Of a DNA stretch of 64,000 nucleotides, positions 4,284 through 39,600 are shown in pieces. This stretch comes from Frateuria flava. Lineage in GTDB: Bacteria > Pseudomonadota > Gammaproteobacteria > Xanthomonadales > Rhodanobacteraceae. The DNA is taken from NCBI RefSeq assembly GCF_017837635.1, contig NZ_JAGJRS010000021.1:1-64000 (forward strand). The letters are read 5' to 3'. The notes below the pieces were generated by a model. It saw only the letters and a list, made by a program, of their open reading frames with translations, made no database searches and was not told where the DNA came from. The translations under genes and the position numbers were made by a program. Position 1 is the first letter of the stretch. Each line of letters opens with the position of its first letter.

Positions 4284-5446
4284 GGCTGCGCCTCCGAGGC
4301 GGCGCTGGCCGGCGTCGCGGGCGCGGCGCTGCCGGCCTGGCGCAACTGCGCCACCATGTAGAAGCGCTCCTTGCCGCTGGCCGGATCAGGCTGGATGCTG
4401 CCCTGGAAGTTCGGGTCTCGCACGATCTTCGAATCCTTCAGCGCATCGATCAGCGCCGCGGCCTGGGGCGCCTGGCCCTGGAAACCCACCTGCCCGCTCG
4501 GGTCGACGCTGAGCCGCTCCAACCAGGCGCTCTGTGGCATCCGGCGGGTGAGGTCGAGCAGCAGGTCGAGCATGGTCACGCGGTTCTGCTTGCGCCGGAC
4601 CAGGAAGCTGGCCGCGCCGGCGTTGTCCTGCAGTTCCTGGCGCAGCGCGGCGACCTGTTGCGCCTCGGCCTGCATGTCCTGCACCTGCACCTGCATGGCG
4701 GCGAGGGCCTGTTCGCGGTTGTTGAGCCATTGCGCCAGTGCCAGCACCAGCAGCAGCACCGCCGCGGCGGCGAGCGCGAGGTTCAGGCGCTGGCGCGGGT
4801 TGGTGCGATACGGCACGCGTGCCGGCGGCAGCAGGTTCACCCCAAGCCGGCCGGTGCCCTCGGCCACGTCCACCGCATCGACGCGGATGCCGGCGCCTTC
4901 GAGCTCGGTCAGCAGCGGGTCGAGCGTGTCGCGCGGCACCGCCACCAGTTCGGCGAAAAAGCGACCGGCCGGGGCCGGCGTGTCCAGTTCGAGCACGGCG
5001 TAGTGGACCTGCTCGACGCGGAAAGGCGTCTGCCGGTCCATCTCGAACGCGCCGACCTGCTGCAGGTTGTCGGCCGCCGCGCGGGGAAGCAGCAGGCGCC
5101 GGCGCAGGACCGCGCTGGCCGGCAGCAGCAGCGCCAGACGCAGGTCTTCACGGTCGGTTTCGCGCACGGCCGCCGACAGGGCAGCCTGCTCGATCGCCGC
5201 CTCGGTGCCGCGCGGCCATTGCGCGCGCACTTCCGATTCGCCGGTGCGGCGCAGCTCCCAGCGCCCGTCGGTGCGCTGCAGCAGGTACCACTGCGCGCCG
5301 CCGCCGAACAGCCGGCCCCACGAAGCCGGCAGCAGCGCGCCGAGTTCGGCGAACCACCAGGCGAAGAAGCGCGGCAGCGGCGAGGCGCGCCAGGCACGGC
5401 GCGCGCGGTCCAGCTGCGGTCGCAGCGATTGCGTTGCGTTGGTCAT
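4280..5446 (-). CDS. gspL: Type II secretion system protein GspL
   Basis: A 388-residue bitopic protein that connects the cytoplasmic ATPase GspE with the inner-membrane platform. Residues 1-215 form the cytoplasmic part (actin-like/PilM-like fold in this family). A membrane segment lies at about 219-240 (LNLALAAAAVLLLVLALAQ). A PilN-like periplasmic region with a coiled coil and a conserved end (SAWLERLSVDPSGQVGFQGQ) follows. The C-terminal tail is Ala/Pro-rich. It is coupled to gspK and gspM by 4-base overlaps. Confidence 0.93.
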   Translation of the reverse strand: MTNATQSLRPQLDRARRAWRASPLPRFFAWWFAELGALLPASWGRLFGGGAQWYLLQRTDGRWELRRTGESEVRAQWPRGTEAAIEQAALSAAVRETDREDLRLALLLPASAVLRRRLLLPRAAADNLQQVGAFEMDRQTPFRVEQVHYAVLELDTPAPAGRFFAELVAVPRDTLDPLLTELEGAGIRVDAVDVAEGTGRLGVNLLPPARVPYRTNPRQRLNLALAAAAVLLLVLALAQWLNNREQALAAMQVQVQDMQAEAQQVAALRQELQDNAGAASFLVRRKQNRVTMLDLLLDLTRRMPQSAWLERLSVDPSGQVGFQGQAPQAAALIDALKDSKIVRDPNFQGSIQPDPASGKERFYMVAQLRQAGSAAPATPASAASEAQP

Positions 5447-6291
5447 TCGCGGTCACCCTCCCGCCAGTGCAACACCGCGTAAGGCTGCGCCCCCGGACGA
5501 ACGCCCTGCAGGCGTACGGTGGCATGCAGCACGGCGCGCGTGCCGTCGGCCATCGTGGCCTCCGAGCGAATACTATGCGTCACTCCATTGCCCGCGAACA
5601 GGGCGGCCACGCCCGGCCGCGTGTTCTTTCGGGCAGCCAGCACCTGCGCGACCCGCTCGGGCGTCATGCCCGGGATCGCGCCCAGCGCCAGCGGCTGGGC
5701 GGTGTTCGGATCGGGGCTCTCGCGGCCGGACCAGATGGTGATCGCACCGGCGATGGTGCGATAGAGCGCGGGTGTCATGCCGGCCACCTGCTGCAGTTCC
5801 TCGATGCTCAGGAACGGCGAGTGGCGCGGCTGGTAGCCGTTGGCCGCATACACCTGCGCGCCCACTTTCTGGCCGGCGCTGAACTCGCGCCAGTCGACGA
5901 CCGCGCCAGCCATCTTCTGCGCCTGGTCCGGACGCAGGCCGGCGGCGCGGAACAGACCCTGCAGCACGATCGGCGAGGCACTGTTCAAATCCACCTTGCC
6001 GCCCTCGTCGACTGCGCTGACCTGTACGGTGGCACCGTCGAAACGGAACGTGTACGGCCGGCCATCGGCCTGCCAGCGCTCGGCCAGGCGCGGGTCCTGC
6101 AGGCTATAGACGGCGCGGGAGAGGCCGGCCTCGGCCGCGTAGTGCGCTTGGGCCTGGGCGAACTGGAAGCGCGCCTGCAAGCCCTCGGTACGCGCGGTCA
6201 TCGCGTAGCCGCCCAGCATGATCGCCAGCAGCGTGCAGGCCCACAGCACCAGCAACAGCGCGACGCCGCGCTGGCCACGACGCGCGCTCAT
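5443..6291 (-). CDS. gspK: Type II secretion system minor pseudopilin GspK
   Basis: A 282-residue minor pseudopilin, the large tip subunit of the pseudopilus. I start it at the ATG overlapping the gspJ stop (ATGA), which gives a normal 9-residue leader MSARRGQRG and a mature protein beginning VALLLVLWACTLLAI. As usual for GspK, the mature protein lacks Glu5. The body has the long GspK alpha-domain (SPFLSIEELQQVAGM, then IPGMTPERVAQVLAAR). Unlike the four pseudopilin genes transcribed just before it, its leader carries no repeat insertion. Confidence 0.94.
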   Translation of the reverse strand: MSARRGQRGVALLLVLWACTLLAIMLGGYAMTARTEGLQARFQFAQAQAHYAAEAGLSRAVYSLQDPRLAERWQADGRPYTFRFDGATVQVSAVDEGGKVDLNSASPIVLQGLFRAAGLRPDQAQKMAGAVVDWREFSAGQKVGAQVYAANGYQPRHSPFLSIEELQQVAGMTPALYRTIAGAITIWSGRESPDPNTAQPLALGAIPGMTPERVAQVLAARKNTRPGVAALFAGNGVTHSIRSEATMADGTRAVLHATVRLQGVRPGAQPYAVLHWREGDRE

Positions 6292-7124
6292 GGCTGCCTC
6301 CAGGCGAGGTGGGGGCCGGCAACCTCCAGCATCGCGAACTGGCGCTGGTTGGCCGAGGCGTCCACGCGCAGCGGTACGGTCAGTTGCGGCCAGTAACCGA
6401 CCCCGGGCAGCTTCAGATCGATGCGCACCAGCTGCGGCAGGCGGTCGCCCTGGCGCCAGTCGTTGCGCCACGCACCGGGGCGGCCCCGCTCATCCACCCC
6501 GCGGTAGTGGAAGGCGGCATCGCGCACGTCCTCCAGAAGCACCTGCGGCGGGCCGGGCTTGAGCGGTTCGCCGGTGGGCGGCAGCAACGCAAAACGGACC
6601 TGCAGGCGTTGGCCGCCCTTGCCGTTGTCGACCAGTTCGAGCGTCTGCACCTGCGGCCCGAGCTTGCCCAGGTAGCCGGGCAACGGGGCGACGAAGCTCA
6701 TCGTGTCGGGCTCGCCGCGGAAGAAGATCGCCTCGTCGTTGTCGGGGTTCTTGCCCAGCTGCTGGGTCATCGCCTGCGCCAGTTCACTGCGCAGGAACTG
6801 CTGCGCCGAGCGCACTGCGTCCAGCCGCTCCACCGCCGCAGTCCCCGATTGCACGCTGTGGGAGGCGGTGCGGATACCGGAGTAGACGCCGACCAGCAGC
6901 AGCGCAAGCAGCGCCAGTGCGGCGAGTGTTTCGAGCAGGGTGAAGCCGCTGGCGCGCGTTGCTTGCCCGGCATGCGGGATTCGGGATTCGGGATTCGGGA
7001 AGGCGGCCCGTGGTGGGCGCCGGGCATTCGGGACTCGGGATTCGGGATCCACCGGGGTGACCGGCCGCATGCGCATGCGCGCCCTATCAAGTCCCGAATC
7101 CCGCGTGCCGGATACCGTCCTCAC
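6288..7124 (-). CDS. gspJ: Type II secretion system minor pseudopilin GspJ, with repeat-encoded extended leader
   Basis: A 278-residue minor pseudopilin. The prepilin cleavage motif SG-FTLLETLAALALLALL places mature Phe1 at codon 61, with Glu5 present. The leader is therefore about 60 residues, against the usual 6-10. Most of it (NPESRIP, DPESRVP) is translated from an ATTCGGG-type repeat element. The GTG start overlaps the gspI stop (GTGA). An in-frame GTG at codon 25 is an alternative start and would still leave a 36-residue leader. The mature part has the expected GspJ length and ends in an ATGA overlap with gspK. Confidence 0.93.
   Translation of the reverse strand: MRTVSGTRDSGLDRARMRMRPVTPVDPESRVPNARRPPRAAFPNPESRIPHAGQATRASGFTLLETLAALALLALLLVGVYSGIRTASHSVQSGTAAVERLDAVRSAQQFLRSELAQAMTQQLGKNPDNDEAIFFRGEPDTMSFVAPLPGYLGKLGPQVQTLELVDNGKGGQRLQVRFALLPPTGEPLKPGPPQVLLEDVRDAAFHYRGVDERGRPGAWRNDWRQGDRLPQLVRIDLKLPGVGYWPQLTVPLRVDASANQRQFAMLEVAGPHLAWRQP
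6976..7116. repeat. ATTCGGG-type inverted-repeat element inside the gspJ leader
   Basis: Tandem GGGATTC heptamers (three at 6976-7000, more at 7021-7049) face a reverse-complement arm of CCCGAATCCCG at 7088-7117. The intervening segment contains GCATGCGCATGCGCGCC. The whole element lies within the coding frame of gspJ, upstream of the prepilin cleavage site. It resembles the elements in gspI, gspH and gspG but is longer. Confidence 0.8.
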
Positions 7125-7654
7125 GACCCCGCCCCCTGCGGCTGCGGGCCGCCGACACGCAAGGTGCTGAAGCGCGCGCTGTAATCATGCCCGGCGCTCT
7201 TCCACATGACGTTCAGCTCGAGCCGGTAGAGCTTGAGCGGCGAGGCCGGCGCGCGCGGCTGTGGGCCGTTCGCCTGCGCAGTGGTCGGCGGCTGGAACGG
7301 TTGCACGTCGAGCTGCCAGCGATAGCGCTCATCGAAACGACCGCTGCTGCGGCCGACCCGGATCGGCTCCAGCACGAACGCACTGTCGAGCAGGCTGCGC
7401 GCCCACATCGCCGCCTCGCTGCGTTCGGCCGAGCGCGCGGTGAGGTTGAGCGAGCTGCCGGCCACGCGCATGAGCGAGGCGAAGGTGATCGCCAGCAGCA
7501 GTACGGCGGCGATCACTTCGAGGAGGGTGAAGCCCCTGGCGCGCTTCGCGCGGCGGGGGATGGGGAATGGGGAATGGGGAATGGAAAAGGCATGCGGCTG
7601 GCGCTTGCGCGCCCTGGCGATTCCCCATTCCCCATTTACGATTCCCGTGGTCAC
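7121..7654 (-). CDS. gspI: Type II secretion system minor pseudopilin GspI, with repeat-encoded extended leader
   Basis: A 177-residue minor pseudopilin. The GTG start is chosen because it overlaps the gspH stop (GTGA). No ATG, GTG or TTG occurs in frame between the repeat element and the cleavage motif ARG-FTLLEVIAAVLLLAI. The leader is thus 41 residues (HAFSIPHSPFPIP is repeat-derived) in place of the normal 6-10. Mature Glu5 is present. The C-terminal part has the usual GspI strands (YRWQLDVQPF, LYRLELNVMW). It ends in a GTGA overlap with gspJ. Confidence 0.92.
   Translation of the reverse strand: MTTGIVNGEWGIARARKRQPHAFSIPHSPFPIPRRAKRARGFTLLEVIAAVLLLAITFASLMRVAGSSLNLTARSAERSEAAMWARSLLDSAFVLEPIRVGRSSGRFDERYRWQLDVQPFQPPTTAQANGPQPRAPASPLKLYRLELNVMWKSAGHDYSARFSTLRVGGPQPQGAGS
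7557..7648. repeat. GGGGAAT-type inverted-repeat element inside the gspI leader
   Basis: Three GGGGAATG units (7562-7584) face CATTCCCC units (7621-7636), with GGCGCTTGCGCGCC at 7600-7613 between them. The unit differs from the ATTCGGG unit of the neighbouring elements, but the architecture and the central GC-rich palindrome match those in gspH and gspG. The element is entirely within the gspI coding frame. Confidence 0.8.
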
Positions 7655-8193
7655 GACGTCACCACGCTCACCGCGCCGGTCAGCCAGGCCACGTTGACCT
7701 GCCAGCGGCGCTCGCCGCGCTGCAGGGTGATGTGGCCGCCGGTGGAGCTGCCGTCGGGAAAGAAGCGGATGCGGCCAGTGTGGTTGTCGGGCTGGTCCTC
7801 GCGTGCGCTGGTGATGGACAGGCGCATGCCCCTGGGCAAGGCCACTTCCCTGCCACCGGCCGCCTGGTAGCTGGCTGCTTTCGTGTCCAGCTCGAAGGTC
7901 TGTTCCTTGCCCTTGACGATCGCCTGCGCGCGCGTGGCACGCAGCGCGGCAGCCAGTTCCACGCTGGCCGCACGCGTGCGTGCGCTGGCCAGCCCCTGCG
8001 TCACCGACACGGCAGCCGCCGCCGCGGCGATGCCGATCAGCAGGATCACCGCCAACATTTCGAGCAGGGTGAAGCCTCTGGCGCGCGCGCGCCGGCGACC
8101 GGGGATTAAAGATTCGGGATTCGCAAACGCGGGCGGCCGGCGCTTGCGCGCCTTCCCGAATCCCGAATCCCGAATGCCGAATCCCGACATCAT
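7651..8193 (-). CDS. gspH: Type II secretion system minor pseudopilin GspH, with repeat-encoded extended leader
   Basis: A 180-residue minor pseudopilin. The start is the first ATG of ATGATG, overlapping the gspG stop. The cleavage motif ARARG-FTLLEMLAVILLIG places mature Phe1 at codon 41, with Glu5 present. Codons 4-30 (GFGIRDSGFGK, then FANPESLIP) are translated straight from the repeat element, and no usable start codon lies between the element and the cleavage site. The mature domain has the usual GspH features, including the strand-rich end RWQVNVAWLTGAVSVV. Confidence 0.93.
   Translation of the reverse strand: MMSGFGIRDSGFGKARKRRPPAFANPESLIPGRRRARARGFTLLEMLAVILLIGIAAAAAAVSVTQGLASARTRAASVELAAALRATRAQAIVKGKEQTFELDTKAASYQAAGGREVALPRGMRLSITSAREDQPDNHTGRIRFFPDGSSTGGHITLQRGERRWQVNVAWLTGAVSVVTS
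8100..8187. repeat. ATTCGGG-type inverted-repeat element inside the gspH leader
   Basis: GATTCGGGATTCG (8111-8123) faces repeated CCCGAATCCCGAAT units (8155-8186). The palindromic core GGCGCTTGCGCGCC lies between them at 8139-8152. The element is translated as part of GspH, giving GIRDSGFG on one arm and NPESLIP on the other. Confidence 0.82.
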
Positions 8194-8708
8194 TGCCAGC
8201 TACCGATGTCCTTGCTGTAGCCGTCGCCGCCGGGCTTGCCATCCTGGCCGAAGAACACCAGGTCGTAGCTCCCATGCTCGCCGGGCGCCTTGTAGCCGAA
8301 CGCATGGCCGAACGGATCGACCAGATCCGACGGCTTGGCGTACGGGCCCTGCCAGTTCGGTGCGTTCGGCGGCTTCTTGACCAGCGCGTCGAGGCCGGCC
8401 GGCGGCGAGCCGTTGTCGAGCGAGTAGTTTTCGATCTTCTGGCCGAGCGTCATCAGCTGCGCCTTGCCCGCGCCGTACTTGCCCTTGTCGACGCTGCTGC
8501 CGACCTGGCGTACCACGATCGCGCCGATGATGCCGATCAGCACGATCACGGCGAGCATTTCGAGCAGGGTGAAGCCGCGGGCGTGCGCGGCGCGGCGCTT
8601 GGGATTCGAGATTCGGGATTTCGGATTCGCAAGAGCGGGTGGTTGGCGCTTGCACGCCTTAACGAATCCCGGATCCCGATTCCCGAATCCCCGTGCCTGG
8701 TCAAGCAT
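8190..8708 (-). CDS. gspG: Type II secretion system major pseudopilin GspG, with repeat-encoded extended leader
   Basis: The 172-residue major pseudopilin. I choose the ATG at 8708 because GGAGA stands about 6 bases upstream and the gspF stop is 12 bases away. The cleavage motif HARG-FTLLEMLAVIVLIGI gives a 45-residue leader, and no start codon lies closer. Mature Glu5 is present, and the C-terminal calcium-loop region (GPYAKPSDLVDPFG, then DIGSWQ) is typical of GspG. The mature domain is otherwise of normal length, so only the leader is altered. Confidence 0.95.
   Translation of the reverse strand: MLDQARGFGNRDPGFVKACKRQPPALANPKSRISNPKRRAAHARGFTLLEMLAVIVLIGIIGAIVVRQVGSSVDKGKYGAGKAQLMTLGQKIENYSLDNGSPPAGLDALVKKPPNAPNWQGPYAKPSDLVDPFGHAFGYKAPGEHGSYDLVFFGQDGKPGGDGYSKDIGSWQ
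8601..8697. repeat. ATTCGGG-type inverted-repeat element inside the gspG leader
   Basis: GGGATTCGAGATTCGGG (8601-8617) faces GAATCCCGGATCCCGATTCCC further right (8664-8690). A core GGCGCTTGCACGCC at 8645-8658 differs at one base from the core in gspH and gspI. It is translated as the GspG leader (FGNRDPGF, then ALANPKSRISNPK). Confidence 0.8.
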
Positions 8709-9938: not shown

Positions 9939-9962
9939 CTCAGAGCCCTTGCCGATACGGCT

Positions 9963-10125
9963 CCCTCTCCCCGGCGGGGAGAGGGCTGGGGTGAGGGGCC
10001 ACGGCTTGCGGGAAAGGATGAGTGAAACCCGGTGCGCCCTCAAATGCAAAAGCTGCAGGCGTACTGATCAGGATCCGGGCGAGCCCCGGTCCCTCACCCC
10101 AGCCCTCTCCCCGGTGGGGAGAGGG
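9963..10125. repeat. Inverted pair of CCCTCTCCCC/GGGGAGAGGG palindromes between gspE and gspF
   Basis: Two copies of a palindrome, CCCTCTCCCCGGCGGGGAGAGGG (9963-9985 with tail to 9997) and the opposite-facing copy (10092-10125), each carry a CTGGGGTGAGG tail. They flank about 95 bases of unremarkable sequence. A third copy is at 19631-19665. This is a REP-like pair. It could form hairpins in the gsp transcript and affect expression downstream of gspE. Confidence 0.75.
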
Positions 10126-10150
10126 AGCAAGGGTGCCGGTCCGCATGGCA

Positions 10151-38925: not shown

Positions 38926-39600
38926 ATGACCCCAAGCCCTACGCGCCCCCGAATCGGCCCCCGGCCGCCCGCCACCGCGTACCTGTGCGGAATGGCCCTT
39001 CTTCTCGCAGGATGCTCGCCAATGGGACAGTCACCTGCGTCGTCGCGCGCACCCTCGCCATCGGGCGTGATCCCCGCGCACATCCCGCTGGACGCCCATC
39101 ACATCGTCCACATCGATACCAGCAAGCCGATCCCGTTCGACGAGCACAGCTTTGGCTCGTACTGTTTCGATACCTACGGTTGCAAGGTTCTTTATAACGG
39201 GCGCTACGACAGCCATGACCCCGAAGACGTCAAGCAGGCTTCGTCGGCGTCACTGGGCGCCAAGTACCCGGACGACATGTATGCCAGCTGGATCGGGATT
39301 CGGAACTTCCCTCGTCCGGCACATGTGACATGGCGATCCAAGGACGGCCAACCGCACGAGGCCGAAGTAGATATTGCCAAGATCTTTGCAGATCAAACGG
39401 TTCGCCATCGCGTACCACAAGCTGATCTGCCAGCAATACTCAAAGCCCCTGTCTACCCGGGCATTATCCTTGAGGTCAACGATCGGACGATCAACGTCTA
39501 TATGCGTGCGTTCGTTACGACCAACAAACTCCAGATTGCCGGAAACCCGTATAGCAGTTTCCGTGACGACCTGATTCTTGTTCACAGCAAGACGTACTGA
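38926..39600 (+). CDS. Lipoprotein, candidate immunity protein of the adjacent lipase
   Basis: A 224-residue lipoprotein. The signal peptide ends in LLLAGC with the lipid-bearing Cys at residue 29; MTPSPTRP is the chosen start. The body holds VTWRSKDGQPHEAEVDIAKI and ILEVNDRTINVYMRAF, then YSSFRDDLILVHSKTY. These features recall lipoproteins found beside DUF2235 lipases in xanthomonads. Its 3' half is visibly less GC-rich than the surroundings. The stop is 20 bases before the lipase. A periplasmic inhibitor of a lipase delivered by neighbouring cells is the best reading, but it is inference. Confidence 0.75.
   Translation: MTPSPTRPRIGPRPPATAYLCGMALLLAGCSPMGQSPASSRAPSPSGVIPAHIPLDAHHIVHIDTSKPIPFDEHSFGSYCFDTYGCKVLYNGRYDSHDPEDVKQASSASLGAKYPDDMYASWIGIRNFPRPAHVTWRSKDGQPHEAEVDIAKIFADQTVRHRVPQADLPAILKAPVYPGIILEVNDRTINVYMRAFVTTNKLQIAGNPYSSFRDDLILVHSKTY

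Follow-up and report, generated by a model that had tools for sequence, protein, structure and literature searches.

The question this locus raises is why four consecutive pseudopilin genes of a type II secretion system (T2SS) operon—gspG, gspH, gspI and gspJ—carry inverted-repeat DNA inside their coding sequences. They lie in the first 64 kb of contig NZ_JAGJRS010000021.1, the whole stretch analysed here and called the window, which is part of the 3.68 Mb genome of a soil bacterium whose closest named relatives are Frateuria (family Rhodanobacteraceae). In each gene an inverted repeat of 85-150 nt, with arms of tandem GGGANTN heptads (at least two units), stands between the start codon and the prepilin cleavage site. 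This position, the open frame, the recurrence in relatives and a core pattern found in gsp leaders only, in both orientations, are observed; translation, cleavage, local copying, flipping and near-neutrality we infer. The explanation we favour, and consider probable, is that these are resident passenger hairpins of the T2SS operon, translated, tolerated as the leader is removed, spreading locally and flipping in place.

Repeat elements in four pseudopilin leaders

The operon runs on the minus strand in the order gspE-F-G-H-I-J-K-L-M-N-D. The relevant features of the window are given below; leader lengths, in residues, include the cleavage Gly.

8574..8708 (-), gspG leader, 45 residues from ATG 8708 to the cleavage Gly
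8595..8691 (-), heptad inverted-repeat element in the gspG leader
8074..8193 (-), gspH leader, 40 residues; ATG 8193 overlaps the gspG stop (ATGA)
8102..8186 (-), heptad inverted-repeat element in the gspH leader, with a core pattern match at 8123-8154
7532..7654 (-), gspI leader, 41 residues; GTG 7654 overlaps the gspH stop (GTGA)
7556..7646 (-), inverted-repeat element with GGGAATG-type heptads in the gspI leader
6945..7124 (-), gspJ leader, 60 residues; GTG 7124 overlaps the gspI stop
6968..7117 (-), heptad inverted-repeat element in the gspJ leader, longer and compound
5443..6291 (-), gspK, leader of 9 residues without an element; comparison gene outside the repeat set

The window contains 17 matches to the pattern GATTCGGGATTCGGGA at up to three mismatches, where 0.42 would be expected; 16 of them lie within the gspG, gspH and gspJ leaders and the remaining one is at 39290. 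The gspI leader has no match because its heptads read GGGAATG. An Rfam scan of the window gave no match. When RNA folding is compared with dinucleotide shuffles, the gspG (z -3.8) and gspI (z -4.1) leaders fold clearly better than the shuffles; gspH (z -1.4, 16/200 shuffles equally good) and the whole gspJ leader (z -1.2, 26/200 equally good) do not. In some relatives the folding z is as low as -9.4.

The genes themselves are identified by several models. NCBIfam models place gspE, gspF, gspG (TIGR01710) and gspD above their cut-offs, and gspH, gspI and gspJ (equivalog models) and gspK match below cut-off; gspL, gspM and gspN are named from their position in the operon. PF07963 scores above cut-off at the prepilin motif of all four element-bearing genes, where the cleavage site reads G|FTLLE. 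The TIGR01710 match in gspG begins at residue 44 and the N_methyl match at residue 43.

Much of this had been anticipated in a preliminary description made from the letters of the stretch alone. It had claimed an inverted repeat between start and cleavage site in each of the four genes, with the leader lengths listed above and a normal 9-residue leader in gspK, and this holds. The start that it gave for the repeats, 6976, needs a small correction: the gspJ arm begins near 6968. As claimed, no start codon separates element and cleavage site in gspG, gspH and gspI, which have zero in-frame ATG, GTG or TTG in or after the element. The claim that all four elements are translated stands as far as the frame goes; gspJ could start inside its own element, which holds three in-frame starts (two ATG and one GTG, none after it), and its leader is 44 residues if counted from an ATG inside the element.

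The same arrangement recurs in relatives. We compared 166 loci—the best 80 of 333 named loci, two Pseudomonas records among them, and 86 others—which reduce to 136 distinct loci when merged by identical junctions only; two gspJ junctions were set aside from the counts. Of the 74 leader elements of gspG-J, 70 (gspG 15/17, gspH 23/24, gspI 22/22, gspJ 10/11) stand in a frame that runs open from an upstream start codon through to the cleavage Gly, and a start codon follows the element in eight leaders and in none of the other 66. The residue at the cleavage site is Gly in 74/74 carriers, and the nine residues ahead of it carry a mean net charge of +2.2 to +2.5 in carriers and +2.0 to +2.8 in non-carriers. 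Median leader lengths are 52 residues in carriers versus 20 in non-carriers for gspG, 41 versus 31 for gspH, 43 versus 10 for gspI and 53 versus 7 for gspJ. Elements begin close to the preceding stop codon, with median distances of 4 nt for gspH, 5 nt for gspI, 9 nt for gspJ and 39 nt for gspG.

Distribution of the elements and their core

Within the operon the elements are concentrated between gspE and gspJ. Occupied junctions number 9/81 for E-F, 17/135 for F-G, 24/136 for G-H, 22/133 for H-I, 11/131 for I-J (11/130 when counted as gspJ leaders) and 1/132 for J-K (locus L143; labels with L and G are our own for loci and genomes), and none was occupied at K-L (0/127), L-M (0/73), M-N (0/69) or N-D (0/70). 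No element was found in 895 kb of gsp gene bodies. From gspE to gspD there are 45 elements, from 14/74 loci, and the operon flanks hold none in 613 kb, about 109 kb of which come from the 14 carrier loci.

Carriers are scattered over the tree: at least 14, 17, 15 and 8 state changes are needed for gspG, gspH, gspI and gspJ (FastTree tree, 129 loci), a count that cannot tell gain from loss. Close relatives, G001 and F. terrea, have the same operon without elements, and the overlapping starts of gspH, gspI and gspJ are common to carriers and non-carriers in the genus. For gspG, a short leader is common to G001, G003 and F. terrea; the Frateuria carriers (the genome of the window and STR12) are not sisters and have a 5' segment of their own in common, so recombination between lineages is possible.

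Occupancy of the gsp operon tracks the genome-wide abundance of heptads. A gspG match was present in 103 genomes of the family; 86 of them were measured, 7 were scanned for elements only and 10 were not fetched; 46 genomes have at least 10 heptad hits (30 measured, 2 scanned, 14 not seen). At least one gsp element is carried by 21 of the 30 measured heptad-rich genomes and by 2 of the 56 poorer ones. The 30 rich genomes hold leader elements in 10 gspG, 12 gspH, 13 gspI, 9 gspJ and 1 gspK genes, which occupies 44/119 of the G-J junctions. No elements were found in 30/30 f2 loci (a family taken to be Xanthomonadaceae, viewed around gspH; genome-wide heptad abundance not gauged), in 13/13 loci of other families of the order (three of them also f2; abundance likewise not gauged) or in seven more loci of the own family.

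Typically, a gsp element consists of about four GGGANTN heptads, a core that is often 35 nt long, and the same heptads inverted. A 32-nt core pattern, searched at up to three mismatches, has five matches in 117 genomes, all of them gsp leaders by position and in both orientations: gspH of the own genome, gspG and gspJ of G002, gspH of G003 and gspI of G022. In five more genomes, position puts 9/10 core matches in gsp leaders; the other match, with three mismatches, lies elsewhere. A core profile recognizes 20 leader elements at E <=0.01 (11 forward, 9 reversed) and 0/2500 shuffled junctions; it was built from 18 leader cores, hence most of its matches are found by construction. Many carriers hold other cores. 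Likeness between cores reaches 0.91 between Frateuria and Rhodanobacter and 0.97 within Rhodanobacter, and cores of the same genome are more alike than cores shuffled among genomes (0.647 versus 0.548, 0/2000).

Both orientations can be seen at close range. Rhodanobacter sp. Soil772 has the core forward in gspH but reversed in gspI, and two relatives have it forward in gspI junctions of the same length (111 nt; L222 reversed, L211 and L202 forward). The core is read in different frames and therefore does not look as if it were kept for its peptide. The two arms of one element match in heptad type (0.529 versus 0.186 shuffled), and arm heptad type is slightly matched within a genome as well (0.534 versus 0.472, 7/5000). 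The ends of the gspG and gspH leaders are 74% alike in 12 genomes carrying elements in both, versus 58% when permuted.

Two further ideas about the cores found little support. Copying driven by the DNA likeness of the prepilin motif is weak as an explanation, as J-K equals G-J (0.589 each) and the L207 E-F junction has the same core; over the first 60 nt, likeness is highest for G-H (0.77) and is 0.49-0.59 for pairs with gspK. The idea that the long gspH leaders without heptads hold decayed cores is unsupported, all 20 profile matches being in heptad elements. As separate observations, the heptad-free gspH leader of Frateuria terrea (L192, 10381-10485) folds to a hairpin with a core-like loop, which the profile did not confirm; the gspG and gspH leaders of Rhodanobacter spathiphylli (L202, 8057-8210 and 8594-8785) have in common a second, non-heptad repeat that reaches the cleavage Gly; and L171 and L316 show, within or ahead of the gspG leader, a further stretch that looks like a repeat (KWIPGSAFGGPGMT, SRWIPASAGMT).

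Heptad repeats also sit at gene borders across the own genome, where 67 zero-mismatch triple-heptad hits fall into 25 places (grouped by eye), four of them the gsp leaders. We examined 26 clusters in 20 stretches outside gsp, three of the 26 without a readout row: 18/26 have an in-frame start 1-27 nt past the element, and 6/26 are open from a start before the repeat, four of these six having a later start too. The two clusters in open frames without a later start are at L174 2558 and L178 2516. The latter (2516-2536; G000:C5 near 312212) is a heptad repeat with one arm only, enclosed by a long open reading frame; it is an apparent in-frame insertion in a mature protein that we take to resemble pyruvate dehydrogenase E1.

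Weighing the explanations

Under the explanation we favour, a resident lineage of hairpin repeats would settle shortly past the stop codon that ends the gene before. The element would there be read into protein because the start codons of gspH, gspI and gspJ lie within that stop (ATGA/GTGA) and the start codon of gspG lies ahead of its element; it would be translated within a leader that is mostly 36-66 residues long. The prepilin peptidase would then remove this leader at the unchanged G|FTLLE site, with the last nine residues staying basic; passenger hairpins may be tolerated because the translated peptide is removed. Copies would spread from leader to leader inside the operon via local recombination, and the inverted repeats of the arms would let elements flip in place. 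The core pattern, found in gsp leaders and nowhere else in the 117 genomes at up to three mismatches, points to local copying, and the sequences suggest operon-resident copies that spread locally and flip in place.

Several of the results weigh against this explanation. Of the four leader elements whose frame is not open, three have no later start either; the folding of the gspH and gspJ leaders of the window is not clearly better than that of shuffles; and read-through is not strictly confined to gsp, since 6/26 other clusters are open through the repeat. Among heptad-rich genomes, 9/30 have no gsp leader element, and G035 and G045 are rich in heptad hits yet without gsp elements. Searches that allowed up to three mismatches are the basis for saying that the core is absent outside gsp, and the L207 E-F junction, which is not a leader, holds a core 0.87-0.89 like the leader cores of that genome (other E-F cores compared reach 0.73 or less). 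The likeness of leader ends is weaker for G-I (30/1000) and was not seen for the other carrier pairs tested. Long leaders also occur without elements—gspH non-carriers with an overlapping start have at least 30 residues in 35/39 cases—and the two other kinds of prepilin leader counted, gspK and pilW, are nearly or wholly free of elements (1/132 and 0 in 18 loci). GspK is known as a pseudopilin; its motif here is divergent and gives no PF07963 match. The odds of the passenger explanation are slightly lowered by the six non-gsp clusters that are open through the repeat and by a core likeness between genera of at most 0.91.

The proposal of the preliminary description that the junction before the cleavage site is tolerated or preferred is partly supported. 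Among the overlapping or closely spaced junctions of the gsp operon, those followed by a gene with a removable leader (G-H, H-I and I-J) are occupied in 57/400 cases versus 0/339 for K-L, L-M, M-N and N-D. As a general preference for prepilin junctions it is not supported: besides the single gspK leader in 132, there are no elements at pilW (18 loci, 73 kb) or in the 30 f2 loci, and the idea that the element can enter any prepilin leader is rejected. The comparison of related gspG-J loci that it called for did yield empty sites, in G001 and F. terrea. The search of the own genome that it asked for places four of the 25 sites in gsp leaders, and of the eight other PF07963 sites the six that were resolved have short leaders. 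It had named equally long leaders in element-free relatives as evidence to the contrary; these exist in part for gspH, and the non-carrier medians for gspI and gspJ are 10 and 7.

That the hairpins are regulators following coupled starts, setting the amounts of GspG, GspH, GspI and GspJ and kept by selection, is an explanation we consider unlikely but not negligible. It would account for the concentration of elements in gspE-J, the 44/119 occupied leaders in heptad-rich genomes, the matched arms, the between-genera core likeness of up to 0.91 and the strong folding in some relatives, and it is left room by the sparse gspK, the empty pilW, the L207 E-F core, the long gspH leaders of non-carriers, the weak folds and the leader-end likeness confined to G-H. 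The close relatives that have the same operon without elements, the many state changes on the tree and the two poorly folding window leaders argue against it; moreover, arm matching would also arise from inverted-repeat recombination. A role in pseudopilin dosage may exist alongside passenger status. Somewhat less credible again is the independent insertion of a genome-wide mobile repeat after stop codons, with the gsp leaders as its visible survivors. Heptad repeats do sit at gene borders throughout the genome, as in Xanthomonas (PMC4692102), and gsp occupancy does follow abundance (21/30 rich versus 2/56 poor genomes); however, the core is not near other elements of its own genome (best ungapped likeness 0.66 in the 20 other element stretches), is not found elsewhere in the 117 genomes at up to three mismatches and is alike within a genome, and the 613 kb of flanks are empty. 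We give least credence, very little indeed, to a downstream translation start or a misassembly that would leave the element untranslated. The starts inside the gspJ element and the eight leaders with a later start would fit it; gspG, gspH and gspI of the window, with no start codon in or after the element, the open frame in 70/74 and the overlapping starts common to non-carriers of the genus do not.

The passenger explanation can be taken further, to an invertible hairpin element with its own core that resides, in one bacterial family, in removable pseudopilin leaders, copies itself from leader to leader in a genomic niche made by a protease, where DNA can be translated freely since the product is cut away, and may tune the ratio of pseudopilins; we offer this version tentatively, as somewhat less likely than not to hold in full.

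Relation to known repeats and significance

G-rich heptads of the GGGAATC / GGGNATC type are known from Xanthomonas, where they are dispersed, prefer four units and sit close to where the 5' neighbouring gene stops (Rehm et al. 2015, PMC4692102). Inverted pairs number 70 and 75 in two genomes, 89% and 93% of the heptads are intergenic, and xpsF is named as repeat-associated (PMC4692102). The gsp elements have in common with them the heptad, the four-unit preference, the inverted pairs and the stop-proximal position; no translated leader or dedicated core is described in the portions of that paper used here (PMC4692102). In contrast to the mostly non-coding Xanthomonas heptads (PMC4692102), the gsp copies stand in open frames; most other copies of the own genome fit the Xanthomonas description.

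In being short palindromic repeats at gene borders, the elements also resemble REP/REPIN elements. As for the RAYT transposases that go with these, Y1_Tnp matches in six genomes of the genus number 3, 6 and 2 in heptad-rich versus 1, 0 and 1 in heptad-free ones, which is only suggestive. Rickettsia palindromic elements stay in the mature protein. They are about 150 bp long, and nearly half of them lie within open reading frames as translational fusions (PMC10969869). The gsp elements are likewise in-frame, stop-free palindromes (70/74 leader elements); however, the Rickettsia elements occur in unrelated metabolic genes (PMC10969869), and the gsp ones have heptad arms and lie in the leaders of one operon, whose removal is expected. 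Two of the 26 other heptad clusters of the own genome (L174 2558 and L178 2516) are likewise in open frames with no later start. Leader length varies among type IV pilins and some have very long leaders, which the gsp leaders resemble in length; no repeat element is mentioned in the portion of that paper available to us (PMC10191384). Across titles and abstract openings, a partial coverage of the literature, nothing turned up that describes removable pseudopilin leaders made of heptad elements, or a core restricted to one operon. Already known are the heptads themselves and the in-frame palindromes of Rickettsia (PMC10969869).

If the passenger explanation is true, post-translational trimming gives repeats a site inside functioning operons at which they can lodge and be translated at little cost. 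The locus makes testable the longest leader that a prepilin peptidase can remove, as well as the local copying of repeats between paralogous genes of one operon, and it cautions that the annotated N-terminus of such a gene may be a repeat. At the gspE-gspF junction of the window (9950-10140) a different inverted repeat, which is not of the heptad family, can be seen by eye (CCCTCTCCCC... / CTCACCCCAGCCC...).

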